The notes below the pieces were generated by a model that was not told where the DNA came from, ran no database searches, and saw only the letters and a program-made list of their open reading frames with translations. A program made the translations under genes and the position numbers. From positions 1-36,067 of IMG/VR virus record IMGVR_UViG_3300009370_000081: a stretch of 36,067 nt of DNA, one strand, 5' to 3'. This DNA comes from a virus. Position 1 is the first letter of the stretch, and each line of letters starts with the position of its first letter. This document shows, one piece after another, positions 1,620 to 35,508 of the stretch.

Positions 1620-1629
1620 AACTATTTAT
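1620..1629 (+). promoter_or_regulatory. Candidate late promoter element (AACTATTTAT)
   Basis: Exact AACTATTTAT, 22 bases upstream of the start at 1652 and just after a terminator. It is one of four exact copies in the window, all immediately upstream of genes. The function is inferred. Confidence 0.5.
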
Positions 1630-9375: not shown

Positions 9376-9385
9376 AACTATTTAT
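9376..9385 (+). promoter_or_regulatory. Candidate late promoter element (AACTATTTAT)
   Basis: Exact AACTATTTAT placed ten bases after a terminator and 36 bases before the start at 9422. That is the expected place for a promoter of the tape-measure operon. Confidence 0.52.
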
Positions 9386-22299: not shown

Positions 22300-22608
22300 A
22301 TGAAGATCACAAAGCAACGACTAAAACAAATTATTCAAGAAGAAGTTAAAGATATTCAAGAATTGCAAAAAATTTCCTCTGCGGAGATGAGCAAACAATT
22401 AGGAGCAGAGCGATCTGCTGGAGCAACGGGAGTTTCTGATGAAGAGAAAAAATTGTTAATGGACCTTCATCGCTCTTTAAAGGCCGCAGCTTTAAAAACC
22501 AATCTTCTTAGTGGCGCAATTGCTCCTTTCGTACAAAAACTTCAAGCAGCTTTAGAAAAAATAGCCCCACTTCAAGCTGAAGAAGAGCCTGGCGCTCGCG
22601 ACTATTAA
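22300..22608 (+). CDS. Small protein with capsid-targeting-like N-terminus (A)
   Basis: A 102-residue, highly charged helical protein. It starts MKITKQRLKQIIQEEVKDI, an amphipathic basic peptide shared in form with the proteins at 26151, 33758 and 34945. The remainder contains LHRSLKAAALKTNLLSGAI and a helical C-terminus (KLQAALEKIAPLQAEEE). There are no catalytic motifs, membrane segments or Cys residues. The peptide contains I-Q-E, which fits the [I/L]-x-E rule for T4 prohead protease cleavage. An ACGGAGAAAC ribosome-binding site and a late-type motif precede it. I infer a late protein that may be packaged in the capsid; a small DNA-binding or scaffold protein is an alternative. Confidence 0.72.
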   Translation: MKITKQRLKQIIQEEVKDIQELQKISSAEMSKQLGAERSAGATGVSDEEKKLLMDLHRSLKAAALKTNLLSGAIAPFVQKLQAALEKIAPLQAEEEPGARDY

Positions 22609-22629
22609 ATATATTTTTTAAGGTGACTG

Positions 22630-23490
22630 ATGGAAACAATTATCGGACTTGGATCCGCAGGGTGTAACATTGCAGAGAAGTTTTCCCTCCATCCTCAGTA
22701 TAATATTTTACGTATAGATACCGAGAAAAGAAAAGGAGAGGATTTTAAACTTATTCCCAAGCAGGATTCACATGAAGACTATGAAAATAACTGCCCTTCT
22801 TTTAAAAAGTTTTTTTCTAACGTAACTGAAGACTGTTTAGTGGTGGTTGGTGGCTCTGGCGCAATCTCTGGGGTGATCCTGCGCCTTTTAGAAGCACTAA
22901 GCAAAAGAAAAGTTGGTATAAGCGTTCTTTATATTCAGCCTGATATCGAAGCACTGCCCAGGATAGCCAGGCTACAGGAGCGTATAGTGTTTCAAATATT
23001 GCAACAATACGCAAGATCAGCAGCCCTCAACAGACTATATCTGGTAAGTAACCCGGCCATAGAAGACATTTTAGGAGAATTGCCAATTCGAGGGTATTTT
23101 GATAAAATTAATGACTTTTTAGTTTCAACTATTCATATGTTAAACATTTTTATTAACTCAGAGCCATTAATGTCTACGTTTGAAAAACCTCTGGAATCGG
23201 CTCGCATCTCTACACTTGGTATATTTAATTTAGAAAATAATGAAGAAAAATTACTTTTCCCCTTGATTTTCCCCAGGGAGCGCTTATATTATTACGCGAT
23301 AGGAAATGAGAGACTAGAAACTGAACGTGGTCTTTATAAAAAAATTCTCTCCTTAGTCAAGGAGAGAACAGATGGTGATAAAGTAAAATGTAGTTACGGT
23401 ATCTATCCAACTGAATATGAAGACGATTATGTTTATTCTATAACTCATTCATCATTTATACAAGGAGAAAACAATGGTGACAGTTTATAA
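22630..23490 (+). CDS. FtsZ/tubulin-superfamily-like protein, divergent
   Basis: A 286-residue protein with the layout of the tubulin/FtsZ N-terminal domain. It has a Gly-rich first loop IIGLGSAGCNIAEKF (4-18) after strand 1, then NILRIDTEK (25-33). The tubulin signature position carries VVVGGSGAISGV (71-82, in place of GGGTGTG) and runs into helix RLLEALSKRK and strand VGISVLYIQPD, as in FtsZ 'vaevak..g.ltvavvt.PF'. Then come RLQERIVFQILQ and LNRLYLVSNPAIEDIL, matching the FtsZ '..lit.iPNdkll' strand and the start of its H7 region (DKINDFLVSTIHMLNIF). The catalytic T7 loop NxDxxD is not evident, so GTP hydrolysis may be lost. It is shorter than bacterial FtsZ. Start: ATG after AAGGTGAC. Phage tubulins such as PhuZ position phage DNA; a role here is inference. 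Confidence 0.7.
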   Translation: METIIGLGSAGCNIAEKFSLHPQYNILRIDTEKRKGEDFKLIPKQDSHEDYENNCPSFKKFFSNVTEDCLVVVGGSGAISGVILRLLEALSKRKVGISVLYIQPDIEALPRIARLQERIVFQILQQYARSAALNRLYLVSNPAIEDILGELPIRGYFDKINDFLVSTIHMLNIFINSEPLMSTFEKPLESARISTLGIFNLENNEEKLLFPLIFPRERLYYYAIGNERLETERGLYKKILSLVKERTDGDKVKCSYGIYPTEYEDDYVYSITHSSFIQGENNGDSL

Positions 23491-23710
23491 TGGTACGTTT
23501 AAAAAGAAAGATAATACTCAGCGGAGTATGAGGTTTGTGAAGGTGAATGAACTTCCTTATGACTTACAGGAAGGTGTTTCGCGTAAGCAAACTACGGAAA
23601 ATGGCCGCGAGTTGGTCTGGGATATTGACAAGAAGAGTTTCCGTTATTATAATTGGAATACGACAATTGGCAATGTTTCACAAACCAAAGGCAATGTGAC
23701 GTTTAGTTAA
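23474..23710 (+). CDS. WYL_2/Sm-like small beta-barrel protein
   Basis: A 78-residue protein overlapping the tubulin-like gene by 17 bases and starting behind CAAGGAGAAAAC. The pattern GTFKKKDNTQRSMRFVKV...ELVWDIDKKSFRYYNWNT fits the WYL_2 (formerly DUF2693) family of phage proteins: a small Sm/SH3-like barrel with 'v.f.kkdGt.R.m' at the start and 'vwD.....fR.f..d.i' at the end. The biochemical role of that family is not known to me; nucleic-acid binding is suggested by the fold. The overlap implies coupled expression with the tubulin-like protein, just upstream of the single-strand binding protein. Confidence 0.68.
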   Translation: MVTVYNGTFKKKDNTQRSMRFVKVNELPYDLQEGVSRKQTTENGRELVWDIDKKSFRYYNWNTTIGNVSQTKGNVTFS

Positions 23711-23715
23711 TTAAA

Positions 23716-23859
23716 ATGTGGTTGATCTACGACAGAGAAACATATACTGAATTTAAAGATTCTATTTTGTTTCTCTGTCGTTTGGTCATACCACTATATC
23801 AGAAGCTTGGGAGATTTACCAAGTTTACTCTATTCAAAAAAAAAGGAGAAAATAAATGA
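23716..23859 (+). CDS. Possible 47-residue leader ORF overlapping the ssb start
   Basis: An ATG-initiated ORF (MWLIYDRETYTEFKD, a short hydrophobic stretch ILFLCRLVIPLY, then a basic tail) fills the gap before the single-strand binding gene. It ends in an ATGA overlap with that gene's start. There is no ribosome-binding site upstream of it, and a perfect 14-bp inverted repeat lies within it, so it may be a chance ORF over a regulatory leader. If translated, it could couple to ssb expression. Confidence 0.25.
   Translation: MWLIYDRETYTEFKDSILFLCRLVIPLYQKLGRFTKFTLFKKKGENK
23729..23781 (+). promoter_or_regulatory. 14-bp hairpin in the leader of the single-strand binding gene
   Basis: Bases 23729-23742 pair perfectly with 23768-23781 (arm core CGACAGAGAAAC) around a 25-base loop. 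No T tract follows, so it is not a terminator. It lies 74 bases upstream of the gp32-like start. T4 gene 32 is autoregulated at translation by gp32 binding to a structured leader, so this is a candidate for similar control, although the structure here is a simple hairpin. Confidence 0.6.
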
Positions 23860-24608
23860 GTCTTGATATGAAAAAAATGAGGCAAAAGCTTCAAGCAGTG
23901 CAAAATAAAGGTGGTGGAAAGTCTATTTTTTGGCGACCCACAGACGGGGAACACGTGATCCGCATTATCCCCACAACCGATGGTGATCCGTTTAAGGATT
24001 ATTGGTTTCACTATAACCTGGGTGACAATCCCGGTTTCTTGAGTCCGAAGAAAAACTTTGGAGAGGACTGTCCTTTGGATAGTTACGTGCGCGAGCTTTA
24101 TAAGCAAGGAGATGAAGAAAGCATTAAGATGGCTAAATCTCTTAACGCTCGTCAGCGCTTCTTTTCACCCGTTTTAGTCCGAGGCGAAGAAAAGTCTGGG
24201 GTGAGAATCTGGGGATATGGGAAGATGGCCTACCAGGAACTTCTTAATCTTGTATTAAATCCTGAATATGGGGATATTACAGATGCAGAGGGAGGGACTG
24301 ATCTTTTAATTAAGTATGGAAAGCCACCTGGAGCCCAATTTCCTCAAACTACTATTACTCCGCGCCGAAAAACATCTCCGATTTCGGAGGATGGTGAGCA
24401 GGCCAAAGAGTTCTTGGAATCTGTTCCAGAGTTTGAAAGCGTTTTCGATCGGAAAACACCCTCTCAGGTACAAGAAATGCTTGATGAATTTATATCAAGC
24501 CAGCTTTCAGAGGATGAAGTTGAAGAACTATCCGAAGAACAAACCAAATATACTTCTTCTAGTTCTGACGTAATCGACAAAAAATTTGATGAGATGTTGA
24601 CAGCTTAG
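23856..24608 (+). CDS. Single-stranded DNA-binding protein, T4 gp32-like
   Basis: A 250-residue protein behind a strong AAAAGGAGAAAATAA start signal. A basic N-terminal segment (KKMRQKLQAVQ) matches the position of the gp32 self-association arm. The core contains IFWRPTDGEHVIRIIPTTDG, FFSPVLVRGEE and VRIWGYGKMAYQELL, as in gp32 proteins ('W.p..g..vIRflP' and 'y..nilV'...). The C-terminus is acidic (SEDEVEELSEEQ and DKKFDEMLTA), as expected for the tail that recruits replication proteins. At the T4 zinc-binding position CPVC, this protein has CPLD (C72), and no second Cys is present, so the zinc site appears lost. A terminator follows. It protects single-stranded DNA in replication and recombination. 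Confidence 0.85.
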   Translation: MSLDMKKMRQKLQAVQNKGGGKSIFWRPTDGEHVIRIIPTTDGDPFKDYWFHYNLGDNPGFLSPKKNFGEDCPLDSYVRELYKQGDEESIKMAKSLNARQRFFSPVLVRGEEKSGVRIWGYGKMAYQELLNLVLNPEYGDITDAEGGTDLLIKYGKPPGAQFPQTTITPRRKTSPISEDGEQAKEFLESVPEFESVFDRKTPSQVQEMLDEFISSQLSEDEVEELSEEQTKYTSSSSDVIDKKFDEMLTA

Positions 24609-24624
24609 TTATTACTGGGCTGGG

Positions 24625-24653
24625 AAGGAGGGCTTTAAGCCCTCCTTTTTTTT
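24625..24653 (+). terminator. Rho-independent terminator after ssb
   Basis: AAGGAGGGC (24625-24633) pairs with GCCCTCCTT (24639-24647) across a TTTAA loop, with T residues to 24653. The recombinase ribosome-binding site follows immediately, so termination may be partial. Confidence 0.92.
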
Positions 24654-24668
24654 AAAAGGAGAATATAA

Positions 24669-25760
24669 ATGGCTAAACGAAAATCTTCCGTGGGAAGAAT
24701 TAATACTAATGAGATAAGGAATTTGTTAAATAAAGGGGCCGGGTTTGAAGTGGCCTATAATTTGCAGGACGAAAATCCCACAGACGTAAAAGAGTGGATC
24801 CCTACAGGCTCGCGATGGTTAGATTCTATTATTTGTCGTGGTAGTCGAGCAGGAATTCCTGCTGGGAAAATAACTGAGATTGCTGGACTAGAAGGGGCTG
24901 GAAAGTCTTGGATGGCGGCTCAAATCTCGGCTAATGCCCAAAAAATGGGTTACACAGTGATTTATTTCGATGCAGAATCTGCTATTGATTCTTCGTTACT
25001 ATTACGGCTAGGGATCGATCTAGACAGTTTTATTTATGTACAGGCGACCACAGTTGAGTTTGTATTAGAAAGAATTGAAACATTGATTGCAAATACTGAT
25101 AACAAATATTTATTTGTTTGGGATAGTGTTGCTCAAACAGCCTGTGAAAAAGAAACGGTAGGGTCTTTTGATCCTAATTCACAAATAGGAATTAAGGCCA
25201 GGATCCTTTCTTTGGGGTTAAGGAAACTAAACATTCCTTTGGCCAATCATGGTTCAACACTATTAGTACTGAATCAACTTAAAACCAATATAGCGTCAAC
25301 TCCTTCACAGCGGATGGAAGTTTTGACTGAACCCTATGTTACACCAGGTGGAAAAGCGATGAATTATTCTGCTTCTTTGCGTGTATGGTTAACAGGGAGA
25401 AAAGCTAAAGCATCTTTTATTATGGACGGCGCAGATCAGGTGGGTTATGAAGTTCAAGCTAGACTAAAAAAGTCACGATTTGGGACAACAAATCGTCGAT
25501 GTCATTTCAAGATTATTTTTGCTGGCGATGTAGGTATTTTGGATGAAGAAAGTTGGCTCGATGCGATCCTAAGTTCCGAGAATGTAACACAATCTGGCGC
25601 ATGGTACGCTTTAAAATATTCTGATGGAACAATGCAAAAATTTCAGTCGAAAAGCTGGGTCGAGAAACTACATACTGATGAAAAGTTTAAAGCTCGTGTT
25701 TTAGAGATAATGGATGAAGAAATTATTAAAAAGTACGAAGAAAAAACGAGGATAGGTTAA
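24669..25760 (+). CDS. recA: RecA/UvsX-type recombinase
   Basis: A 363-residue recombinase starting behind AAAAGGAGAATA. It has the RecA core: EWIPTGSRWLDSIICRG before the ATPase, Walker A GLEGAGKSW (73-81), FDAESAID with the catalytic-type Glu, and the Walker B strand YLFVWDSVA (about 146-154). The L1/L2 region carries LLVLNQLKTNIA and EPYVTPGGKAMNYSASLRVWL, as in RecA/UvsX ('n......p.GGkal.f..s....'). It catalyses strand exchange in recombination-dependent replication and repair. It directly follows ssb, its usual functional partner. The stop overlaps the start of the next gene (TAATG). T4 UvsX and bacterial RecA differ mainly in peripheral parts I cannot separate by eye. Confidence 0.9.
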   Translation: MAKRKSSVGRINTNEIRNLLNKGAGFEVAYNLQDENPTDVKEWIPTGSRWLDSIICRGSRAGIPAGKITEIAGLEGAGKSWMAAQISANAQKMGYTVIYFDAESAIDSSLLLRLGIDLDSFIYVQATTVEFVLERIETLIANTDNKYLFVWDSVAQTACEKETVGSFDPNSQIGIKARILSLGLRKLNIPLANHGSTLLVLNQLKTNIASTPSQRMEVLTEPYVTPGGKAMNYSASLRVWLTGRKAKASFIMDGADQVGYEVQARLKKSRFGTTNRRCHFKIIFAGDVGILDEESWLDAILSSENVTQSGAWYALKYSDGTMQKFQSKSWVEKLHTDEKFKARVLEIMDEEIIKKYEEKTRIG

Positions 25761-26101
25761 TGTATACATGTATAATTTATTTAATGCTCGGTGGCTCGCT
25801 AGCCATTGTTCCGGGCTGTGCTATAGAACCAGCCGTTGTAGTGCCGGATACTGCAAGATACTATGAATATGAGTCATATTATGATCGCAGAGACGTTATT
25901 TACAGGCCAGTTCATCTAAGATCCCGTAGGGCGTATTCGTGGAATGTGCGTATTCCTCACCGTCGTGGAACCTGGGTCGAAAACCGTCGTCACCGCCGAG
26001 GAATACGACGACTTTTGCGCCAGCATAGGTACAAGCATCATTTTCGTAAAAATAATAATGGTGTAAAACGACATAAAAAAATGCACAAAAAGAAAAAATA
26101 A
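25760..26101 (+). CDS. Small putative lipoprotein, basic C-terminus
   Basis: A 113-residue protein with a hydrophobic N-terminus and a likely lipobox ending in Cys20 (SLAIVPGC), so a secreted lipoprotein is plausible. The mature part begins with a Tyr/Asp-rich segment and ends very basic (Arg/His/Lys-rich, with RRHRRGIRRLLRQHRYKHHF and a Lys-rich tail). The start shares TAATG with the recombinase stop, so it is coupled to it. Small phage lipoproteins often act in superinfection exclusion or at lysis. The charge suggests binding to nucleic acid, lipid A or peptidoglycan, but none is shown. I do not recognise the family. Confidence 0.6.
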   Translation: MYTCIIYLMLGGSLAIVPGCAIEPAVVVPDTARYYEYESYYDRRDVIYRPVHLRSRRAYSWNVRIPHRRGTWVENRRHRRGIRRLLRQHRYKHHFRKNNNGVKRHKKMHKKKK

Positions 26102-26150
26102 ACTCCTAATGGTTTCTGTTAAAAACTAATTATTAACGCGGAGAAATGTT

Positions 26151-26477
26151 ATGAGTATCAAAAGTTTACGCAAATTAATAAAAGAAGCAATTGAACAGAA
26201 ATACTTTAAAGCGATAGTAAGGTTAGATTATAGTGCCGACAAAAATATTACTGAGATTATAGATCTTTTACGAGCAGTGTGTAGCGTCACTGTTATAAAT
26301 TCTAGTCCATCTGAATCTATCAGTGTGATGAAACAGAGGTCTAGATTAGAAGTGAAATTTTATTTGACCAGCCCTTCAATTAAGGAGCATTTGCAAAAAA
26401 TGGTTTCGGATGCTTTGAATATTGATGGAATTTATTCGTTTAGAATTATTGGTCTTAACGCTATTAAAACAAAATAG
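26151..26477 (+). CDS. Small protein with capsid-targeting-like N-terminus (B)
   Basis: A 108-residue protein beginning MSIKSLRKLIKEAIEQKYF. The basic amphipathic peptide contains L-I-K-E-A, an exact match to the [I/L]-x-E|[A/G] rule for T4 prohead protease sites. The remaining 85 residues (YFKAIVRLDYSADKNI, TEIIDLLRAVCSVTV, then a strand-helix-strand ending SFRIIGLNA) suggest a small ferredoxin- or ACT-like alpha/beta domain. It has a GCGGAGAAAT ribosome-binding site. It differs from the other members of the set (22300, 33758, 34945) in lying inside the replication cluster and lacking a clear AACTATTTAT motif. The function is unknown. Confidence 0.65.
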   Translation: MSIKSLRKLIKEAIEQKYFKAIVRLDYSADKNITEIIDLLRAVCSVTVINSSPSESISVMKQRSRLEVKFYLTSPSIKEHLQKMVSDALNIDGIYSFRIIGLNAIKTK

Positions 26478-26487
26478 AGAGGCTAAA

Positions 26488-27456
26488 TTGCATAGCAATA
26501 AGAGAGTCATGGTAGTTGACATGTTCAACATGTTTTACCGTGCGTGGGTTGTTGACCCTTCATTGTCGTTAAATGGACCACCGATTGGGGGTTTAAAGGG
26601 ATCGTTGAAGATCCTTCAAAAGCTTAGTAGGGACATAAAACCAGATAAAATTTTAATTTGCTGGGATGGCCCAGGCGGATCATTCAAGCGCCGATCAATT
26701 AATAAGAATTACAAGGAAGGCCGCAAGCCTGCGCGATGTAATTGGGGAGATTCTTCTTCCCTATCTCCCGAAGAAAAAGAACACAATCGGAAGTGGCAGC
26801 AATTGAGGTTGATGGATTATTTTAATGAACTTCCTGTCTGCCAGTTATTTCTGCACGACATTGAAGCGGATGACATTATTTCATTTGCATGTCAGCTTCC
26901 TCATCTTAAGGGCTGGCAGAAGATTATTGTTTCCAGTGACAAAGATTTTTATCAACTTCTCGATAACGAAACTTTATTGTTCAGGCCCATTCAAAAACAA
27001 TTATTAAATAAAAACGATATTATAAATGAATTTAGTATTCATCCGAATAATTTTACATTAGCCCGCGCAATGGTTGGTGACAAAAGCGATGGGCTTAAAG
27101 GAGTTCCTGGGGTTGGTTTAAAAACTATTGCGAAAAGATTTCCTTTCTTGGCAGAGGAAAAGATCCACAGTTTAAATAGGATAATAACCCACTGCCAAAA
27201 TACGAACTCTAAGCTTAAGGTATATGAAAACATTCAGGACCATGAAGAACTTATCATAGAAAACTATACGCTAATGCAGCTTTACACTCCCAGCATTAGC
27301 CCCATAGGATCTCAAAAACTTAAAAACGAAATTATCAACTGTGATATGAGTTTTAATAAAATTGGGTTACTACGATTAATGGCCGAAGATGGGTTCGGGG
27401 AGTTCAATTGGACAGATCTCATGAGACATTTTAGAAAAATGGCACTTGATTCTTGA
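26488..27456 (+). CDS. 5'-3' exonuclease / flap endonuclease (Pol I N-domain or T4 RNase H-like)
   Basis: The preferred start is TTG at 26488, five bases after TAGAGAGG and just after the previous stop; an in-frame ATG at 26422 would overlap the upstream gene by 56 bases with no reason. The 322-residue product has the flap nuclease signature: VMVVDMFNMFYRAW with the first metal Asp, YKEGRKP, the EADDIIS acidic cluster, VSSDKDFYQLL, and the helix-hairpin-helix GDKSDGLKGVPGVGLKTI. It removes RNA primers and 5' flaps. It resembles the 5'-nuclease domain of Pol I, while the polymerase domain is encoded separately at 19113. The DnaB-type helicase gene follows. Confidence 0.9.
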   Translation: MHSNKRVMVVDMFNMFYRAWVVDPSLSLNGPPIGGLKGSLKILQKLSRDIKPDKILICWDGPGGSFKRRSINKNYKEGRKPARCNWGDSSSLSPEEKEHNRKWQQLRLMDYFNELPVCQLFLHDIEADDIISFACQLPHLKGWQKIIVSSDKDFYQLLDNETLLFRPIQKQLLNKNDIINEFSIHPNNFTLARAMVGDKSDGLKGVPGVGLKTIAKRFPFLAEEKIHSLNRIITHCQNTNSKLKVYENIQDHEELIIENYTLMQLYTPSISPIGSQKLKNEIINCDMSFNKIGLLRLMAEDGFGEFNWTDLMRHFRKMALDS

Positions 27457-27494
27457 GCATAAAATCTTATATTATAAGAAAAAGAAGGTAAACA

Positions 27495-28886
27495 ATGACA
27501 GAGAACATTAGTTTCTCAAAATATGGTCGCTCCTTTCAAGAAACGCTGGTAAAGCTTATTTTGGAGGACCGTCCATTTTCAGACCAAATAGAAGAAGTTT
27601 TAGATGTTAACTTTTTTGAGTTAAATTATCTTAGAGTTTTTGTTGCTAAAATTTTTGAGTATCGCCAAAAGTATGGTGTTCATCCCACTGAAAAAATATT
27701 CTCTTCAATACTTCGCACTGAATTAAACAACGAACAGCCTGTGATGCAAAAACAGGTAAGAGATTACTTTGCTAGGCTTAAAAGTAGTAGTATTAATGAT
27801 GAGAAATATATTAAAGAAACTTCTTTAGACTTTTGTAAAAAGCAAAAACTCAAAGAAGCAATTTTAGAATGTGTTCCTCTTATTAAAAATTCTTCTTATG
27901 ACGAAATCAAAGGTGTGATTGATAATGCTTTAAAATTAGGCGTTGATACTGATTTTGGCCATGATTATATGAAAGATTTTGAGCTACGCTATGAACTAAA
28001 AGCTCGCGCTCCCATTTCTACTGGCTGGAAATTGATGGATGATATTACTCGTGGTGGGCTTGGCAAAGGAGAATTGGGTGTTGTAATCGCTCCGACAGGA
28101 GCAGGTAAATCTATGGTTCTCACTCATTTGGGAGCACAAGCAATTATCAATGGCATGAACATAATACACTATACTTTGGAATTATCCGAAGCGACGACCG
28201 GGCAACGCTATGACAGTTGCATTTCACGCACTCGCCTTGGAGATCTTTTTTCTATGAAAGATTTTGTTCATGAGAGTATTCAAGAGAAAGCAAAGGGTAG
28301 TTTAATAATTAAAGAATACCCAACTAAATCTGCTAGTATAAATAATTTGAGAACTCACCTAGAAAAGATAAAAAAAAGAAATCATAAAATTGAAATGATT
28401 ATAGTAGATTACGGTGATTTGCTTAAACCCATAGAAAATTATAAAGAGAAAAGGAACGAGTTGGAATCTATTTATGAAGGATTGCGCTCTTTAGCACAAG
28501 AATTTGAATGTCCGGTTTGGACTGCGTCTCAGACAAATAGGTCTGGTCTTAATGCAGAAATAATCACGATGGAATCTATTTCCGAGGCTTTTAGTAAATG
28601 TTTTGTTGCAGATATGATATTCTCAGTTTCACGTACAATCGAAGACAAAAATACATCAAAAGGTCGAGTTTACATAGCCAAAAATCGCAATGGCCCGGAC
28701 GGACTGGTTTATCCTATATTTATGGATCCATCTTATGTAGAAATAAAGTTGTTAGAACCAACGAGAGAAGAGGATCCATCAGGCACAAACTATAGGAAGA
28801 ATGGACCGGTGGAAGCAGCAAAAAGAATAAAGCGCGTAAAAATAACATCAACAAAAAAGGAGATCGAGGGAGATGGAGGTAGCTAG
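27495..28886 (+). CDS. dnaB: Replicative DNA helicase, DnaB/T4 gp41 type
   Basis: A 463-residue helicase. The N-terminal 150 residues are helical (the DnaB/gp41 N-domain). The RecA-like motor has Walker A APTGAGKSM (199-207), HYTLELSEATTGQRYD (about 225-240), Walker B MIIVDYGDLL (301-310) and the sensor strand VWTASQTNRSG (341-351). It ends with AKNRNGPDGLVYPIFMD, as in DnaB-family enzymes. It should unwind DNA at the fork as a hexamer. Its 3' end overlaps the reductase gene by 14 bases. No primase is visible in the window; it may lie elsewhere. Start: ATG after AAAGAAGG. Confidence 0.92.
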   Translation: MTENISFSKYGRSFQETLVKLILEDRPFSDQIEEVLDVNFFELNYLRVFVAKIFEYRQKYGVHPTEKIFSSILRTELNNEQPVMQKQVRDYFARLKSSSINDEKYIKETSLDFCKKQKLKEAILECVPLIKNSSYDEIKGVIDNALKLGVDTDFGHDYMKDFELRYELKARAPISTGWKLMDDITRGGLGKGELGVVIAPTGAGKSMVLTHLGAQAIINGMNIIHYTLELSEATTGQRYDSCISRTRLGDLFSMKDFVHESIQEKAKGSLIIKEYPTKSASINNLRTHLEKIKKRNHKIEMIIVDYGDLLKPIENYKEKRNELESIYEGLRSLAQEFECPVWTASQTNRSGLNAEIITMESISEAFSKCFVADMIFSVSRTIEDKNTSKGRVYIAKNRNGPDGLVYPIFMDPSYVEIKLLEPTREEDPSGTNYRKNGPVEAAKRIKRVKITSTKKEIEGDGGS

Positions 28887-30729
28887 CCAAATATTATCAG
28901 ATATTACAGTTCACATGAAATATGCACGATTTTTACCAAAAAAAGAGCGCAGAGAAACTTGGAAAGAGTTGGTGACGCGCAATAAAAAAATGCACATTAA
29001 AAAATATCCTAACTTAAAGGAAGAAATTGATGAGGCATATAAGTATGTGTATGAAAAAAAAGTTTTGCCTTCGATGCGCTCTCTTCAATTTGGCGGTAAG
29101 CCCATTGAGGTTGCTCCAAATAGGATTTACAATTGTGCTTATTTGCCTGTGGATGATTGGCACTCTTTTTCAGAAATTATGTTCTTACTGCTGGGAGGAA
29201 CTGGGGTGGGATATTCGGTCCAACGCCACCACACGGAGGAATTGCCAGAAATTCAAAAGCCCAGCTCCAAAAGATCACGACGATATTTAATTGCTGATTC
29301 TATTGAAGGATGGGCTGATGCGGTTAAAACATTGATGAAAAGCTACTTTTTTGGTGGTTCTAAGCCACGTTTCGACTTTTCTGATATTAGGCCCAAGGGA
29401 GCGCGATTAATCACCACAGGGGGCAAAGCTCCCGGCCCACAGCCATTGAAGGAATGCTTAGTAAAAGTAGAGGGGATTTTAGAACAAAAAGAAAACGGTG
29501 ATCGGCTAGAAACAATCGAAGTCCATGACATTATTTGTCATATTGCCGATGCCGTATTAGCAGGCGGCATTCGTAGGGCTGCTCTTATATCTCTTTTTTC
29601 TGCGGATGATGAAGAAATGATAGCCGCCAAGAGTGGAAATTGGTGGGAACAACACCCTCAAAGGGGTCGAGCCAACAATTCTATTGTTTTAATGCGTCAT
29701 CGTATTACGAGAGATTTTTTTAATGAACTATGGGAAAGAGTGAAAGCTTCTGGGTGTGGCGAACCAGGGTTTTATTTTACTAATGATAAAGACTGGGGAA
29801 CCAACCCCTGCTGTGAAATCGCTTTAAAGCCCCATCAATTTTGTAATTTAACTGAAATTAATGTGAGCGACCTTTCGACACAGGACGAATATGAAGATAG
29901 AATCCGAGCTGCGACTTTTATTGGCACATTACAAACCGGCTATACTGATTTTCATTATCTGCGCGATGTTTGGCAGTCTTCTACTGAAAAGGACGCTTTG
30001 GTTGGTATTTCCATGACAGGAATTGCTTCTGGAAATGTCCTGAGCTTAAATATGGAAAAGGGAGCCCAAGTTGCTAAAAAAGAAAATTCTCGTGTAGCTA
30101 AGCTTATTGGAGTTAAACTAGCAGCCAGAGTTACCACTGTAAAGCCAGCTGGGACTACCTCATTGGCAGTGGGAACATCTAGTGGTATTCATGCTTGGCA
30201 TAGTCCATATTACATTCGACGAATTCGTGTAGCTAAAAATGAGCCTATTTACACATATTTGTGTGTCAACCATCCTGAGTTGGTGGAGGATGAATATTTT
30301 CGTCCACACGATACAGCAGTTATTGCTGTCCCACAAAAGGCCCCAGAATATGCTATAACTCGTGCAGAAAGCGCCTTACAGCTTCTTAAAAGAATTAAAA
30401 GGGTAAGTACTGAATGGGTTAGAAAGGGCCATAGAAAGGGCCAAAATACCCACAATGTATCCGCCACAGTATCTATTAAGGATGCAGAATGGATTGATGT
30501 TGGAGAATGGATGTGGGAAAACAGAGATTATTATAATGGACTATCCGTTCTTCCATATGATGGAGGAAATTATGTACAGGCTCCATTTGAAGAGTGTTCC
30601 AAAGAGAGATATGAAAAAATGGTTGAAAATTTGAAAAAAGTTGACTTAACAAAAGTAGTGGAAATAGATGATAATACTGATCTCAAGGGCGAACTAGCGT
30701 GTGCAGGTGGCCATTGTGAATTAGTATAG
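28873..30729 (+). CDS. nrdJ: Class II (adenosylcobalamin-dependent) ribonucleotide reductase, monomeric type
   Basis: A 618-residue reductase. Its key residues fit the monomeric B12-dependent enzyme of Lactobacillus leichmannii. NCAYLP carries Cys88 (redox partner), NPCCEIAL carries the Asn311-Cys313-Glu315 catalytic trio, and FCNLTEINV carries Cys324 (second redox Cys). CAGGHCELV at the C-terminus supplies the Cys610/Cys615 shuttle pair. FLLLGGTGVGYSVQ and TVKPAGTTSLAVG are further family motifs. It makes deoxynucleotides without oxygen or a second subunit but needs adenosylcobalamin from the host. It is somewhat shorter than the Lactobacillus enzyme (739 residues). An extra Cys (314) replaces the usual Gly beside the thiyl Cys. 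The start overlaps the helicase gene and has AAAAGGAGATC upstream. Confidence 0.93.
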   Translation: MEVASQILSDITVHMKYARFLPKKERRETWKELVTRNKKMHIKKYPNLKEEIDEAYKYVYEKKVLPSMRSLQFGGKPIEVAPNRIYNCAYLPVDDWHSFSEIMFLLLGGTGVGYSVQRHHTEELPEIQKPSSKRSRRYLIADSIEGWADAVKTLMKSYFFGGSKPRFDFSDIRPKGARLITTGGKAPGPQPLKECLVKVEGILEQKENGDRLETIEVHDIICHIADAVLAGGIRRAALISLFSADDEEMIAAKSGNWWEQHPQRGRANNSIVLMRHRITRDFFNELWERVKASGCGEPGFYFTNDKDWGTNPCCEIALKPHQFCNLTEINVSDLSTQDEYEDRIRAATFIGTLQTGYTDFHYLRDVWQSSTEKDALVGISMTGIASGNVLSLNMEKGAQVAKKENSRVAKLIGVKLAARVTTVKPAGTTSLAVGTSSGIHAWHSPYYIRRIRVAKNEPIYTYLCVNHPELVEDEYFRPHDTAVIAVPQKAPEYAITRAESALQLLKRIKRVSTEWVRKGHRKGQNTHNVSATVSIKDAEWIDVGEWMWENRDYYNGLSVLPYDGGNYVQAPFEECSKERYEKMVENLKKVDLTKVVEIDDNTDLKGELACAGGHCELV

Positions 30730-30738
30730 GGAAAAATA

Positions 30739-31329
30739 TTGTTTGTAACATTTTATTTAATGTCTGTTTTAAGTATTAGTGCTCCACCCGTCCATGATGA
30801 ACCAGTTGGGTGCTATAGTGAATTATATTTTAAATATAAAGACATAGTTAACCAAGCTATCCACAAGTGCCCTGGGGTTAGTCCTGTAAAAATAAATAGA
30901 AATTTTATATGGGAGCTGGCTGAAATAGAAAACAAATACAAGCCCCCCAAGTCTTTGCGGGGAATGTTGTTGGCGGCAGCTTGTCAAGAATCTAAATATA
31001 ACCCCAAGGCCAAAGGGGACAGGCGCTTTAGCAAAAAAAGACGCCCGAAAGCAATAGGGCTTTTGCAGTTTTGGCCATGGGCAAATAAATACATCAATCG
31101 CTTAAATCCTTATCAGTCAGCTCATTTTTGGATGAAAAGGATAAAAAAACAACTAAAAACATCTATCCCTAGACAATGTAAATTTAAGAGTCGAAAGCGC
31201 AGATGGCTGGCAGCGTGGGTAACGGCTATTCGATTTCCTAAAAAATCAGGACGGTGTTATGAAAAGCCCAAACACTATCGATTATTAAAAAGATGGCGTC
31301 GGAACATAAAAAAAGATCGGAAACCTTGA
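30739..31329 (+). CDS. Secreted lytic transglycosylase (SLT-like)
   Basis: A 196-residue protein starting with TTG after TAGGGAAA; this start gives a signal-like N-terminus (FVTFYLMSVLSISA), while an ATG at 30760 would remove most of it. The SLT core is visible: MLLAAACQESKYNPKAKGD with the probable catalytic Glu84, then KAIGLLQFWPWANKYINRL corresponding to the 'GarGLmQlmp.ta' motif. The C-terminal 60 residues are very basic, suiting contact with the cell wall or membrane. It would cleave peptidoglycan glycan strands, probably as the lysis enzyme. No holin is recognised nearby. A signal peptide would allow holin-independent export. The basic tail is unusual. Confidence 0.8.
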   Translation: MFVTFYLMSVLSISAPPVHDEPVGCYSELYFKYKDIVNQAIHKCPGVSPVKINRNFIWELAEIENKYKPPKSLRGMLLAAACQESKYNPKAKGDRRFSKKRRPKAIGLLQFWPWANKYINRLNPYQSAHFWMKRIKKQLKTSIPRQCKFKSRKRRWLAAWVTAIRFPKKSGRCYEKPKHYRLLKRWRRNIKKDRKP

Positions 31330-31353
31330 AAAAACGAAAAATGTTTCTATTAT
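31326..31353 (+). promoter_or_regulatory. Candidate host sigma70-type promoter
   Basis: TTGAAA (31326-31331) and TATTAT (31348-31353) are 16 bases apart, overlapping the end of the previous gene and 24 bases before the start at 31378. The same TTGAAA-16-TATWWT layout occurs before the DnaE gene, suggesting early or middle transcription by host RNA polymerase. Confidence 0.45.
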
Positions 31354-31377
31354 CTTTATAACCAAAGGAGAGGTTCT

Positions 31378-31632
31378 ATGAGTGAAAATATTACTAAAAA
31401 TAAAGATGAATATATCGTTGATTTTATCAAAGCATTTAAATCCGTCGAAGACGAGATGGAGCCCTATAAAGAGCATCGTCGTGATCTTAAAAAGAATTAT
31501 GTCGATAACGGATGGCTTACCAAGGACGAGCTTCGTTTTGCCGTCAGGGCCTATAGGATGTTAAAGGCGGATGATGACTACAACCACTTTTCAGAAATTT
31601 ATAAAAAGATTTCTAAATCTATTGGAGAGTAA
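31378..31632 (+). CDS. Small helical protein, possibly GapR-like
   Basis: An 84-residue, charged, probably all-helical protein (VDFIKAFKSVEDEMEPYKEH, then RRDLKKNYVDNGWLTKDELR and RAYRMLKADDDYNHF). The arrangement of a first long helix followed by 'GWLTKdELr..vra.r' is reminiscent of the GapR/DUF2312 DNA-binding family, but the match is too weak to assign. It has an AAAGGAGAGG ribosome-binding site and a host-type promoter, and it is directly followed (two bases) by the co-chaperonin gene, so both are probably expressed early together. Confidence 0.55.
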   Translation: MSENITKNKDEYIVDFIKAFKSVEDEMEPYKEHRRDLKKNYVDNGWLTKDELRFAVRAYRMLKADDDYNHFSEIYKKISKSIGE

Positions 31633-31634
31633 TC

Positions 31635-31913
31635 GTGAGCGTTATTCCCTATAACCGATTTTTATTGGTAGAACCAATAGAAGAAAAAGAAGAGGCTCAA
31701 GAAAGTTTAGTTCTTGTGCCGGAAGAATTTAAAATTGAACCAGCTCATAAAATGGTCAAAATTGTTTCATTTGCCAATAATTGTACAGTAAATTGGCATA
31801 AAAATATGAAAATTATTGTACCTTCTAACTTATTAGAAAAACTAACTTTTAATGGCAAAGACTATCATTTGTTGTTGGAGAATCATGTGATGTTAGGGCT
31901 GGATGATAAGTAA
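31635..31913 (+). CDS. groES: GroES/Cpn10-like co-chaperonin (T4 gp31 analogue)
   Basis: A 92-residue protein starting with GTG two bases after the previous stop, with TTGGAGAG upstream. It has the Cpn10 layout: VIPYNRFLLVEPIEEKEEA (GroES 'plgdRvlvk..e.e'), a mobile-loop-like segment SLVLVPEEFK at about residues 24-33 (the hydrophobic VLV triplet should contact the chaperonin), and the closing KMKIIVP...NGKDYHLLLENHVM (GroES 'V.f....g.kv..dgeeylil.e.dilai'). It would pair with host GroEL to fold phage proteins, chiefly the gp23-like capsid protein, as gp31 does in T4. It is slightly shorter than GroES (about 97). No GroEL is present in the window. Confidence 0.82.
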   Translation: MSVIPYNRFLLVEPIEEKEEAQESLVLVPEEFKIEPAHKMVKIVSFANNCTVNWHKNMKIIVPSNLLEKLTFNGKDYHLLLENHVMLGLDDK

Positions 31914-32071
31914 GATACTATATATATTAGTGTTTAGACATCACAAATCTTAAGGAGGGAGAACACAGCTAGTCACAAAATTTCATACTTTTGTTTGCTA
32001 CTGTTTGTAACCCACAGAGGTGCAAAATATCTATTAAACTATCACCAACAGCGTGACCTATCGGATGACAA
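31914..32071 (+). other. 158-base non-coding gap with an orphan ribosome-binding site
   Basis: No supported gene, terminator or tRNA is visible. A near-perfect Shine-Dalgarno, TAAGGAGGGA (31951-31960), is not followed by ATG, GTG or TTG within the usual distance. A frame open from 31938 continues past 32098 without a credible start. It could be a decayed small gene or a regulatory or small-RNA region. Confidence 0.4.
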
Positions 32072-32920
32072 ATGTTTAAAAAACACACATATGATTGGGA
32101 CGAAGTTGTAATAGGAGGAGGTTTCAATGCTATCATCTACACAAGCCTACACGGCTCTAAAATACTCTGTGCTGACCGGCCTTATATATTTCCTTTCGAC
32201 CCCTTACGTCTTACTCGGCCTTTGGGGCTGATTTCTGCTCTTCCCCCCACCCTTACTATGGTTGAGATATATGATTATTTATCTTATAGTTTGGCGTGGA
32301 AGGGAAGTCACCCTTTAGCCAATAATATTGGCAATATTCTTTTGAGGCCCGAGGAAAATAGTTTACGAGTGATAACGATTAATAACTCGGTTATAAACAT
32401 TAATTTTAAAAAATTACGCATTTTTGATCCAACTATGGTGTCGGGCATTCCATTCGAGTGGGAAGAAGAAGTCCTCCACTACAGGGTCTTAGACTGGTTT
32501 AAAGTCAGGTCTGGGATGAAGCATAATTATGAACGAATATATGATAGGGGCAACAACTTTGTAAGAACTTTATTTTTTTATCTTTCCCCTCGCATTGACG
32601 GGAATAAGTCTTTCAAAGATGTAGTAACAGAATCCTTTTTTAAAAAGGAAGAATTGCTGGATCCTAATTATTCGGATGCCGTAGCTAGACTAAAAACTAT
32701 TAGTATGATGAAGGCTCATGGCATTAAAGGCACAAGTAACGGCCCTAAACAAAACCTACCTATTAATATAGAATTGTTAGAAAGGGTTGTGGTTCCTATC
32801 AAAATGATATCTTCGCAAGAAGAAGGCAACATCATTATCGATAGCAGAACAGAACAACAGGTGGTGAATGACTACAACACACTTAGCAGGGATAATTCCA
32901 ATAGCGGGCCAACCGCTTAA
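32072..32920 (+). CDS. Unknown protein with Rossmann-like N-terminus
   Basis: A 282-residue protein. The N-terminus DEVVIGGGFNAIIYTSL (about 10-26) followed by SKILCADRP looks like a dinucleotide-binding beta-alpha-beta start (GGGxNA). The rest (SYSLAWKGSHPLANNIGNI, then EWEEEVLHYRVLDWFKV-like residues and FFYLSPRIDGN) matches no family I know. The ribosome-binding site is weak. Its last 53 bases overlap the next gene, which looks like a nucleotidyltransferase, so the two are probably coupled in one pathway, perhaps sugar or nucleotide modification. FAD or NAD binding is inferred from the first 30 residues only. Confidence 0.6.
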   Translation: MFKKHTYDWDEVVIGGGFNAIIYTSLHGSKILCADRPYIFPFDPLRLTRPLGLISALPPTLTMVEIYDYLSYSLAWKGSHPLANNIGNILLRPEENSLRVITINNSVININFKKLRIFDPTMVSGIPFEWEEEVLHYRVLDWFKVRSGMKHNYERIYDRGNNFVRTLFFYLSPRIDGNKSFKDVVTESFFKKEELLDPNYSDAVARLKTISMMKAHGIKGTSNGPKQNLPINIELLERVVVPIKMISSQEEGNIIIDSRTEQQVVNDYNTLSRDNSNSGPTA

Positions 32921-33734
32921 TTTTAATATGCCATGGCACGATTCTCTAATGCCTATAGCACAGAATTATTTGGCAGTAGAACGCTGTGTAACAGAGTGTG
33001 CTTACGCTGGCTGCGAAAGCATATGGGTGGTGTGTAATTTCGACATGCAACCTCTGATCCGCCACAGGTTGGGAGACTACGTGCAAGATCCCGTTTGGGT
33101 TGTGAGAAGGCACGAGTTCAGCAAAACAGATCATCAAAAATTAATTCCTATTTATTACGTGCCCATACACCCAAGAGATAAAAAAAAGAGAGATTGTTTA
33201 AGTTGGAGTGTGCTCTACGGATCGTGGATGGCTAAAAAAATTCTAGGAGGGCTGAGTCAGTGGTTAAAGCCAGAAAAATATTATGTTTCGTTTCCGTATG
33301 GAGTTTACCACCCTTCTATCCTACGCAAGCATAGACAAAAGATATCTTCAGATCAGGATTTCTTTTTATCTTACGAAGGCAAAACTGTAATAAACGGCGA
33401 ATACTTAGGATTTACACTTAATGAGACAGCGGTTCGGAGACTAAATAAAGAAATTAAAATTAAGTCAACGGGCCTATATCGAGATGAAGAGAGAACAGAA
33501 AGACTATCTTTGGAGGAAAGATTTTCCTATAGGTTTTTTTCAGTAGGAGAAGTTTTTAATTCTTTAGATTTAAAAGACTGTTATATACATGATATAAACT
33601 TTTATTGGAATATAGATTGTTGGGAAAAATATTGTGACTATATTAAAGATGGTCAGCATAAATTTAGACGACCCAGTGAATATATATTAAAATATAAAGA
33701 ATGGAACGGAATAGGAATAGACGAAAGTTTGTAA
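32868..33734 (+). CDS. Nucleotidyltransferase-like (GT-A/RmlA-GlmU fold) protein, degenerate active site
   Basis: A 288-residue protein starting at ATG behind AGGTGG, inside the end of the upstream gene. The N-terminus AGIIPIAGQPLNFNMPWHDS, then LMPIAQNYLAVERCV and YAGCESIWVVCNFDMQPLI, follows sugar-nucleotidyltransferases ('giIlAaG.gtRl.pLt...pK.llpv.....i.~ieel..~Gi~~i.vv'). The GxGTRL loop is replaced by GQPLNFN, and the Lys of 'pK.ll' is missing (DSLMPI). Residues about 145-200 (YYVSFPYGVYHPSIL and INGEYLGFTLNE) fit the middle of the fold. It may be an inactive binding protein or a variant enzyme. It ends right before the AACTATTTAT motif at 33733. Confidence 0.68.
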   Translation: MTTTHLAGIIPIAGQPLNFNMPWHDSLMPIAQNYLAVERCVTECAYAGCESIWVVCNFDMQPLIRHRLGDYVQDPVWVVRRHEFSKTDHQKLIPIYYVPIHPRDKKKRDCLSWSVLYGSWMAKKILGGLSQWLKPEKYYVSFPYGVYHPSILRKHRQKISSDQDFFLSYEGKTVINGEYLGFTLNETAVRRLNKEIKIKSTGLYRDEERTERLSLEERFSYRFFSVGEVFNSLDLKDCYIHDINFYWNIDCWEKYCDYIKDGQHKFRRPSEYILKYKEWNGIGIDESL

Positions 33735-33742
33735 CTATTTAT
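33733..33742 (+). promoter_or_regulatory. Candidate late promoter element (AACTATTTAT)
   Basis: Exact AACTATTTAT overlapping the stop of the previous gene, 15 bases before the start at 33758. The promoter role is inferred from recurrence. Confidence 0.5.
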
Positions 33743-33757
33743 AGCAGAGGACAAATT

Positions 33758-34048
33758 ATGAAGATTACAACGGCAAAACTTTTTGAGGTTATTAACCAGG
33801 AGATCGAAAAAGTATTGGCTGAAATTTCAGACGATCAGGTAGATCGCCTATTAGACATTATGAAAGCCAAAAAAGCAAAGAGGGCGTTGGTTAATAATAT
33901 TGAAAAGAACCCTGAAGCTTCTGCTGATCTTATTTTTCAGTTTTTGGGGCCAGATGGCATTCAACAAATTATGGATGCAATGATCACAGCGGACCCCGCT
34001 TTTGCCACAATGCAACACGACCACCCTATTGATGAAAAGGATTTTTAA
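33758..34048 (+). CDS. Small protein with capsid-targeting-like N-terminus (C)
   Basis: An in-frame ATG exists at 33701, but the ATG at 33758 is preferred. GCAGAGG lies 7 bases upstream, a late-type motif lies just before it, and it yields MKITTAKLFEVINQEIEKVL, matching the N-terminal peptides at 22300 and 34945. The 96-residue product contains L-A-E at residues 20-22, a possible prohead protease site, then a helical basic segment (LDIMKAKKAKRALVNNIEKN) and an acidic C-terminus. No catalytic motifs are visible. It overlaps the cysteine synthase start by one base (TAATG). I infer a late protein possibly targeted to the prohead. Confidence 0.7.
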   Translation: MKITTAKLFEVINQEIEKVLAEISDDQVDRLLDIMKAKKAKRALVNNIEKNPEASADLIFQFLGPDGIQQIMDAMITADPAFATMQHDHPIDEKDF

Positions 34049-34899
34049 TGAACTTAATTGGTAACACTCCCCTCGTTAGGTTGGGAGAAAAGCTTTACGC
34101 CAAATTAGAAACCTATAATCCTTCTGGTTCTATTAAAGACAGGATGGCTTATTTTATTTTAAAACGAGCACAAGAGCGCGGTGAACTAGAGGGAAAAAAT
34201 ACGATTGTTGTGGCCTCATCGGGGAACACTGGCATTTCTTTTGCCATGCTGGCCGCTATGGAAAAATATTCTTGTATTATTGTTATGCCACGCAATATGA
34301 GCAAAGAGCGAAAAGAAATGATTCGTGCTTATGGCGCACGCATAGTTGAAGTGGGAGATAACGATTTTGAAGAAGCTATTCGTCGGCGTGATGAAATGGT
34401 GGCTAATTTTGATTCTTATTGGACTCCCAAACAATTTAGTAATTTAGATAATATAAAATGCCACCAGACAACTACAGCAAAAGAAATAGGATATGAAGTC
34501 TTAAAAACTGCCAAACAACGACTGTCGGCTTTGGTGGCTGGAGCGGGCACTGGTGGGACAATTATGGGTTGCCAAAAACACTTAAAGTCGTTATGGTCAG
34601 ATATGCAAACGGTATTAGTAATGCCGTCCGAAAATGCCCAAGAGCACGGCATTCAGGGAATTAATGATGGGGCTGACTTTTTAGTAGATCGAGACAAAAT
34701 AGATGATGAAATCTCTATTACCACCGATGAGGCTAAAAAGCGGGCTCGAAGATTGGCAACCGAGGATGGTTTGCTTGTTGGAATAAGCTCTGGAGCCAAT
34801 GTTTTGGCTGCGGAGAAATGGATTAAAGCAAATAATCCGAGCGGAGTGGTGGTAACTTTTCTTTGTGACCGAGGAGAAAGGTATTTCAGTTGTTGTTAA
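34048..34899 (+). CDS. cysK: Cysteine synthase (CysK/CysM type, PLP-dependent)
   Basis: A 283-residue enzyme translationally coupled to the previous gene (TAATG). It starts at LIGNTPLVRL, so the usual 10-15 leading residues are absent. PSGSIKDRMA carries the PLP Lys30, VASSGNTGISF is the substrate-binding loop, GAGTGGTIMG is the phosphate loop, and GLLVGISSGANVLAAEKW with a CDRGERYFS ending matches the C-terminal part. It condenses O-acetylserine (or a related donor) with sulfide to make cysteine. CysK and CysM cannot be separated by eye. All motifs appear intact, so it should be active. In a phage it is an auxiliary metabolic gene; possible benefits are sulfur or redox supply for cysteine-rich phage proteins (inference). 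Confidence 0.92.
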   Translation: MNLIGNTPLVRLGEKLYAKLETYNPSGSIKDRMAYFILKRAQERGELEGKNTIVVASSGNTGISFAMLAAMEKYSCIIVMPRNMSKERKEMIRAYGARIVEVGDNDFEEAIRRRDEMVANFDSYWTPKQFSNLDNIKCHQTTTAKEIGYEVLKTAKQRLSALVAGAGTGGTIMGCQKHLKSLWSDMQTVLVMPSENAQEHGIQGINDGADFLVDRDKIDDEISITTDEAKKRARRLATEDGLLVGISSGANVLAAEKWIKANNPSGVVVTFLCDRGERYFSCC

Positions 34900-34907
34900 C
34901 TATTTAT
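34898..34907 (+). promoter_or_regulatory. Candidate late promoter element (AACTATTTAT)
   Basis: Exact AACTATTTAT overlapping the cysteine synthase stop, 37 bases before the preferred start at 34945. An upstream ATG at 34912 would fall only four bases after the motif, within the expected promoter. Confidence 0.52.
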
Positions 34908-34944
34908 GTAGATGGATAAAGTGTCAGACGAAGAGGATAAAAAA

Positions 34945-35508
34945 ATGAAATTGACAGGGAACACGCTCAAAAGAATTGTTACTGGAGTTCTTTCTGAAAT
35001 TGATTATAGAACTATGCGCCGATCTATTCGAGACGAAGAAGAGGGAGATAGGTTGCGGATGATTAAACGTCATGGGTGGGATCCTCTGGACAATCCTTGG
35101 GCACAAGCACCCAAAACACCAGAACCTCCCCCGTGGGAACCCAATTTGGGACTACTAGACGCTATCAAAGTGGGGGATATTATTAGTAGAGCCCGAGCGT
35201 CAGGATTTCGCATTAGAAATATGAAAGTGGTTGGAGTTACGGGCGAATCACCAAACAGAGTGTGGGAGCTAGTTCCAGTGAATATGGACCAGGCTGGTAA
35301 TATAACGTTTTATCACGGGCCGAATTGGACGGAATTAGCAAGCCCCGAGCCTGGCATCGTGGAAAAAGTCTCAGAGGAAGAAATGTCCACACGTACTTCT
35401 TTATGGCAGCTAGAAAAAACACCCGGCATGAACTATAATTTCCATAAGCCTACACCTAAAAAGCATGGCCGAGGAAGCCGATATCGACCTTGGGGTCGTT
35501 CTACTTAA
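34945..35508 (+). CDS. Protein with capsid-targeting-like N-terminus (D)
   Basis: The start at ATG 34945 is chosen over 34912. AAGAGG lies 8 bases upstream of it, whereas 34912 has no ribosome-binding site and is almost inside the candidate promoter. The 187-residue product begins MKLTGNTLKRIVTGVLSEI, with L-S-E as a possible prohead protease site. The next 40 residues are charged (DEEEGDRLRMIKRHGW), followed by a Pro-rich stretch (APKTPEPPPWEPN) and a small domain with VGDIISRARASGFRIRNMK and RVWELVPVNM, perhaps an SH3- or beta-barrel-like fold. The C-terminus is basic. It is the last gene before the DnaE promoter. The function is unknown; packaged virion protein is inferred. Confidence 0.68.
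   Translation: MKLTGNTLKRIVTGVLSEIDYRTMRRSIRDEEEGDRLRMIKRHGWDPLDNPWAQAPKTPEPPPWEPNLGLLDAIKVGDIISRARASGFRIRNMKVVGVTGESPNRVWELVPVNMDQAGNITFYHGPNWTELASPEPGIVEKVSEEEMSTRTSLWQLEKTPGMNYNFHKPTPKKHGRGSRYRPWGRST

Follow-up and report, generated by a model that had tools for sequence, protein, structure and literature searches.

Short N-terminal peptides shared by unrelated proteins of a far-T4 marine phage group are probable capsid-targeting sequences

The IMG/VR record IMGVR_UViG_3300009370_000081, a linear viral DNA fragment of 36,067 bases, was analysed over its entire length (the window). The gene order runs from the C-terminal part of a major capsid protein through neck and tail genes and a replication module (SSB, RecA, 5'-3' exonuclease and DnaB, assigned by similarity and by synteny with Flavobacterium phage immuto) to an end region of small genes. 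Close relatives of the capsid protein number in the hundreds among viral contigs, and the closest annotated isolates, Flavobacterium phage immuto, Microcystis phage Mel-JY01 and Rhodothermus phage RM378, are all distant. On this T4-type gene content and the distance of the annotated isolates, the phage of the window is a member of the wider T4 superfamily ("far T4"). A preliminary description held that four small proteins, encoded at 22300, 26151, 33758 and 34945, begin with a common peptide of the kind that targets proteins to the capsid. In T4, such a capsid targeting sequence (CTS) is found at the N-terminus of internal head proteins (PMC9026906, PMC5694885). The peptide of the window proteins is here called tag 1; a second, unrelated peptide found in the same gene clusters as tag 1 is called tag 2. 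Viral loci and records compared with the window are designated by L-numbers (e.g. L404) and G-numbers (e.g. G018).

The N-termini of all four proteins are present in the window. When scored with a position matrix built from 121 tags of contigs other than the window, 22300 reached +43.8, 33758 +2.1, 34945 -11.5 and 26151 -52.8. The first three outscored all true internal methionines (6,536 controls), the sole three higher controls being tag genes themselves, whereas the score of 26151 was background, reached by 1,096 of the 6,536 controls. Moreover, a homologue of 26151 (G020:60637-61026) that aligned over the whole protein with 34% identity starts with MQNLKDLILEVFRD and lacks the peptide, so that the N-terminal helix of 26151 is part of its fold, and 26151 was rejected as a tag gene. 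The shared peptide thus holds for three of the four proteins, and in these three the [I/L]-x-E that the preliminary description had placed within the first 22 residues was borne out by the sequence: I-Q-E at residues 12-14 and 19-21 of 22300, L-A-E at residues 20-22 of 33758 and L-S-E at residues 16-18 of 34945.

Searches of the viral contigs with each of the four proteins as a single query gave one relative or none; the homologues came from loci obtained in other ways. A tag-like helical N-terminus was present in all 9 aligned members of the 22300 family, with L8 and I12 invariant. The predicted structure of this family was all helical with a mean predicted local distance difference test score (pLDDT) of 57, too weak for a fold search. 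The slot after the VWA/MopE gene was occupied by a tagged gene in three of the closest relatives (L404, L405 and L407), whose protein bodies were weakly or not detectably related to 22300; others had no tagged gene in this slot. The protein at 33758 had one homologue (G011, L234:6649-6939), 42% identical over 79 residues including the tag. Its open reading frame opens at 33701, but the ATG there has no ribosome site and is the less likely start. The least clear of the three tags is that of 34945, whose score is close to the values of about -11 given by two unrelated false positives, and no homologue was found among the viral contigs and collected loci; the promoter-like motif described below and the L-S-E site make it a probable tagged protein. 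This frame may alternatively start at 34912. The starts at 33758 and 34945 both have good ribosome sites, with the promoter-like motif just upstream.

Tag 1 was found widely among viral contigs. The preliminary description had suggested a search for enrichment of the peptide at the starts of other open reading frames, and in loci picked by the capsid gene only, a strict motif occurred at 6 of 761 ribosome-bound first starts versus 0 of 5,720 other methionines. A relaxed DNA pattern gave 94 matches in 26 viral records and none in the reversed control, and a pattern scan of the viral contigs located tag 1 in at least 119 stretches, many holding 2-5 copies. A nearly identical pattern matched once in bacterial and archaeal genomes (one each for 84,980 species), in a contig labelled as an Opitutia metagenome-assembled genome; type-1 tags (at least two) and type-2 tags (several) both occur among the open frames of this contig, which is therefore probably of phage origin. 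In all, 395 distinct type-1 tagged proteins were collected, the bodies of which fell into about 274 unrelated clusters, with as many as 22 tagged genes in one record, the 242-kb G018. This record also has two tandem T4-type major capsid genes (G018:139182-142911). A tblastn search of reference phages with the tag 1 peptide gave no match, possibly because the query was short or filtered, so absence from isolates is not claimed. No description of either tag was found in the open-access literature searched.

The consensus of the 395 proteins is MKITKxQLKQIIKEEL, often followed by VLxE. Information drops after residue 16, and 93% of the proteins have [I/L]-x-E ending at residue 14. Although residues 17-26 played no part in finding the tags, a further [ILV]-x-E lies within residues 16-26 in 65% of them, compared with 9-15% in later stretches and 28% (maximum 36%) in composition shuffles. 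The second site is followed by A, G or S in 25% of the tags versus 1-4% of controls. Candidate sites thus recur at residue 14 and at about 18-22. When E14 is missing, the later site tends to be kept: [ILV]xE occurs at residues 18-23 in 11 of 13 such tags, both diverged window tags included, the 13 also counting one transketolase (L251:17735-18511), a matrix false positive that was rejected as tagged cargo. At identical residues, codons within a genome were identical about as often as in independent draws (0.55 versus 0.53 in G018), and the DNA upstream of tag genes was 24-27% identical within a genome. The randomised codons and unrelated upstream DNA indicate that selection acts on the peptide and that the tag genes did not arise as recent copies of a single gene start.

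Tag 2, MKLL[LFM]ENWRK[YF]LxE, was found on genes interspersed with tag 1 genes (for example in L275, in loci numbered from L284 onward, at G010:33745-35900 and at G011:159618-160700), and at least 218 tag 2 proteins were obtained from 115 loci. Its conservation stops at the E of residue 14; the search pattern itself fixes the residues up to that E, and the informative part is the abrupt end after it. Homologous cargo was found behind either tag: L160:5359-5793, which bears tag 1, shares 57% identity over 133 residues with L145:2575-2979, which bears tag 2, and the GNAT protein L089:4679-5431 (tag 1) shares 38% identity over 168 residues with L127:2117-2833 (tag 2). Judged from these alignments, tags 1 and 2 are exchangeable on homologous cargo between phages. 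A tblastn search with tag 2 gave only weak matches to Rheinheimera phages (E about 3), which were treated as chance.

The bulk of the cargo has no known domain. Recognisable tag 1 cargo includes a DnaJ domain that begins at residue 18 (L180), an L,D-transpeptidase (YkuD; L148), leucine-rich repeats (L151) and, in L089, pentapeptide repeats and GNAT. Among 70 representatives, tag 2 cargo matched GNAT, protein kinase, zeta-type kinase, HD, NUDIX, M23 peptidase, amidase, methylase and nucleotidyltransferase families. Small C-terminal modules recur on different tagged proteins (L103, L158, L182, G011, G015 and others), for example SSEKQRRYMCAMKDKE...EAEEMC and KKKACKPSKGK..KRVDGKC.SYGQ, and are possibly DNA-binding or packing domains.

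Since the start of the window truncates the capsid gene, the protease of this phage cannot be seen, and the protease and scaffold genes would lie upstream, outside the fragment. In the relatives, the head module consists of portal, 2-3 small genes, an S77 protease, one or more small genes, scaffold and capsid protein, so that the gp21-type protease sought upstream of the capsid gene is present there. A tagged protein of 314 residues is encoded immediately after the protease in L072, and two tagged genes immediately precede it in G010. The N-terminal region of the capsid protein ends in LLENQAxxLL[KR]E at about residue 60, and the next residue is mostly A or S; the site was LLRE in 59, LLKE in 15 and VLRE in 2 of 76 sequences. 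It lies close to the cut in T4 gp23, which has a propeptide of 65 residues (PMC9026906). The protease itself has [ILV]xE within the first 16 residues in 36 of 37 cases, mostly LLRE. The tag sites IIKE, LIKE, VLNE, VLSE and LLKE are of the same form as these capsid and protease sites. Among records longer than 120 kb, the S77 protease was present in 8 of 8 with tag 1 and 7 of 8 with tag 2, and in records having the protease, 39 of 91 tags lay no more than 20 kb upstream of it, compared with 12.7 expected.

The sequence AACTATTTAT occurs in four exact copies in the window, all on the coding strand, versus 0.22 expected (Table 1). The preliminary description had placed such a motif before three of the four genes; the copies before 33758 and 34945 are exact, while those before 26151 and 22300 have one and two mismatches, respectively. 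In the other records with the motif, its strand is that of the head or tag genes except in one case in G018. In the compared loci, 98 distinct sites precede scaffold, portal, neck, sheath and tape-measure-like genes, named by similarity and position, as well as several tag genes, typically 27-32 bases from the start. AACTATTTAT was therefore rejected as a tag-specific motif and is a conserved, general late-promoter-like element of the clade, shared in exact form with virion genes by two of the three tag genes of the window. Read on the other strand, it includes ATAAATA, a portion of the late promoter motif of T4.

Table 1. Features of the window that bear on the tagged proteins
Feature	Coordinates	Strand	Basis
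T4-type major capsid protein, C-terminal part	3..809	+	phrog_138, E 2.9e-54; relatives
AACTATTTAT before neck protein gene 1652	1620..1629	+	exact copy
AACTATTTAT before gene 9422, between tail genes	9376..9385	+	exact copy
Type-1 tagged protein, 102 residues, MKITKQRLKQIIQEEVKDIQEL...	22300..22608	+	matrix +43.8; family; slot in relatives
Tag of 22300, candidate sites I-I-Q-E^E (residue 14) and D-I-Q-E^L (residue 21)	22300..22362	+	sequence; positions are the enriched ones
Conserved protein, not a tag gene, between RecA-like and 5'-3' exonuclease genes	26151..26477	+	score -52.8; homologue without peptide
AACTATTTAT, late-promoter-like element before 33758	33733..33742	+	exact copy
Type-1 tagged protein, 96 residues	33758..34048	+	matrix +2.1; G011 homologue; motif 33733-33742
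Tag of 33758, candidate site V-L-A-E^I (residue 22), first site lost	33758..33823	+	V-L-[AS]-E-I kept in homologue
AACTATTTAT, late-promoter-like element before 34945	34898..34907	+	exact copy
Probable type-1 tagged protein, 187 residues, diverged tag MKLTGNTLKRIVTGVLSE	34945..35508	+	score -11.5 (grey zone); motif 34898-34907
Tag of 34945, candidate site V-L-S-E^I (residue 18)	34945..34998	+	sequence; tags without E14 keep later site

Three further genes of the window were noted. A secreted-looking protein of 638 residues (20335-22251; MEKWWLVLILSLAMMSCSD) has MopE metal-binding repeats, a weak VWA-like match and 61 viral relatives. The protein at 22630-23490 starts with METIIGLGSAGCNIAEKF and has a glycine-rich loop resembling that of tubulin/FtsZ but no family match; L010:11563-12597 (GVGGGGGKMA) may be related to it. 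Between two tag genes (34048-34899) lies a gene for a pyridoxal phosphate-dependent enzyme of the cysteine synthase type (PF00291, E 2.4e-62).

The T4 CTS, carried by IPI, IPII, IPIII and Alt and cut by gp21, is likewise a short N-terminal peptide common to different proteins that ends in [I/L]-x-E, and the tags, N-terminal peptides of about 10-20 residues on unrelated proteins with [L/I]-x-E near the end, resemble it in these respects. Both T4 and the present phages belong to the same superfamily and have an S77 prohead protease, a scaffold, a gp23-type capsid protein, here with a matching site in the relatives, and variable accessory cargo. However, tag 1 differs from the T4 peptide MKTYQEFIAE in sequence and length, and tag 2 resembles the T4 internal protein propeptides only in its [FY][LI]xE end. 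The rule [FY][LIV]xE^[ASG] near the start selected only IPII and IPIII in the 49 kb of T4 tested. In immuto, the nearest annotated isolate, it found one other start and gp069, which lies beside the protease and starts with MENNFDIHKWQAKFLKES, resembling tag 2. Unlike in the present phages, only one tag-2-like protein was found beside the head genes of immuto, with no large tag repertoire. The present phages also differ from T4 in having two exchangeable tags and up to 22 tagged genes per genome, compared with a handful, in their mostly acidic cargo, often with enzyme domains, and in being uncultivated marine phages. In giant phages (SPN3US gp53/gp54, phiKZ), inner-head proteins that are probably ejected carry propeptides that a gp21-like protease removes by cutting after x-x-E, and two diverged SPN3US proteins have a common N-terminus (PMC5694885). 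Their propeptides are mostly longer than 100 residues (PMC5694885), whereas the tags are 14-22 residues long, with conservation lost beyond residues 16-22, and are reused on hundreds of unrelated bodies.

Several observations suggest that the peptide is probably a capsid-targeting propeptide of a T4-like but much expanded system: 1) its N-terminal position, 2) its presence on unrelated cargo, 3) selection on the peptide, 4) the L/I-x-E sites, 5) the like sites in the capsid protein and protease, 6) the late motif, 7) apparent linkage to the S77 protease and 8) the exchange of tags. Every sequence test able to overturn the proposal of capsid-targeting peptides in a far-T4 phage came out in its favour. 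Late in infection, many small proteins would be made, each headed by a tag that forms an amphipathic helix of roughly 14 residues. The tag would dock the protein on the scaffold core of the growing head and be removed by the gp21-type (S77) protease, which would also cut the capsid protein after L-L-[K/R]-E; cleavage of the tag would follow [I/L/V]-x-E at residue 14 and/or about 18-22. The mature protein would then stay in the head with the DNA, leave with it on infection and act in the host.

Other findings weigh against this interpretation. Tag 1 is unlike the T4 internal protein propeptides in sequence: IPI-III scored -55 to -60 with the tag 1 matrix, which is background. The proposed likeness to the T4 CTS is one of function. 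The mature cargo is acidic (median net charge -4), whereas the T4 internal proteins are basic, and the residue after the first site (P1') is mostly E rather than the A or S that predominates in T4 and in the capsid protein here. The S77 protease was found in 14 of 18 large and 16 of 25 mostly short tag-selected records; those lacking it are mostly short fragments but include one of 123 kb with tag 2. Most tag clusters lie 9-20 kb or more from the protease, and those of G018 and G020 are far away. No recognisable tag was found in G004, and no virion proteome for immuto or for these phages was found in the literature.

The tag might instead dock on the scaffold core as part of assembly-core components that are degraded, like T4 gp67 and gp68. 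Some tagged genes do adjoin the protease, portal and scaffold genes, and many tagged proteins are small and acidic with extra L-x-E sites, but the folded enzymes among the cargo (GNAT, YkuD, DnaJ, pentapeptide, kinase, zeta-type), its turnover at one slot between close relatives and the presence of as many as 22 tagged genes per genome make this unlikely. Somewhat less likely still is that the tag loads proteins into another compartment or machine, such as the tail tube, phage nucleus or membrane, with L-x-E as a by-product of the amphipathic helix. N-terminal loading signals occur in contractile injection systems, and some L-x-E is expected of any amphipathic helix; however, the second site is enriched above composition shuffles, tags lacking E14 retain the later site, two unrelated tags both end in L/I-x-E, and the capsid protein and protease have the same motif. 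That the shared N-termini reflect recent duplication of one gene start, by DNA recombination or optimisation of translation starts and with no protein function, is highly improbable even though tag genes are often tandem and most have ribosome sites. The randomised synonymous codons and unrelated upstream DNA speak against it, as do the conservation of the peptide over many contigs and the switching of cargo from one to the other of two unrelated tags.

Beyond capsid targeting itself, a wider proposal, for which we consider the case evenly balanced, is that this large marine clade of uncultivated phages of the T4 superfamily has a modular system of effector delivery, readable from sequence, in which at least two interchangeable tags load fast-evolving proteins into the head for injection. 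The injected set may then include protein kinases, acetyltransferases, zeta-type nucleotide kinases, HD hydrolases, a chaperone domain, pentapeptide repeats and cell-wall enzymes. If the interpretation is correct, the tag would allow the proteins carried in a phage head to be identified from sequence and would serve as a search key to hundreds of uncharacterised, possibly injected proteins of abundant marine phages. It would also add new, short peptides with which proteins could be loaded into phage heads, and the long-standing question of the function of internal head proteins would become testable at large scale.

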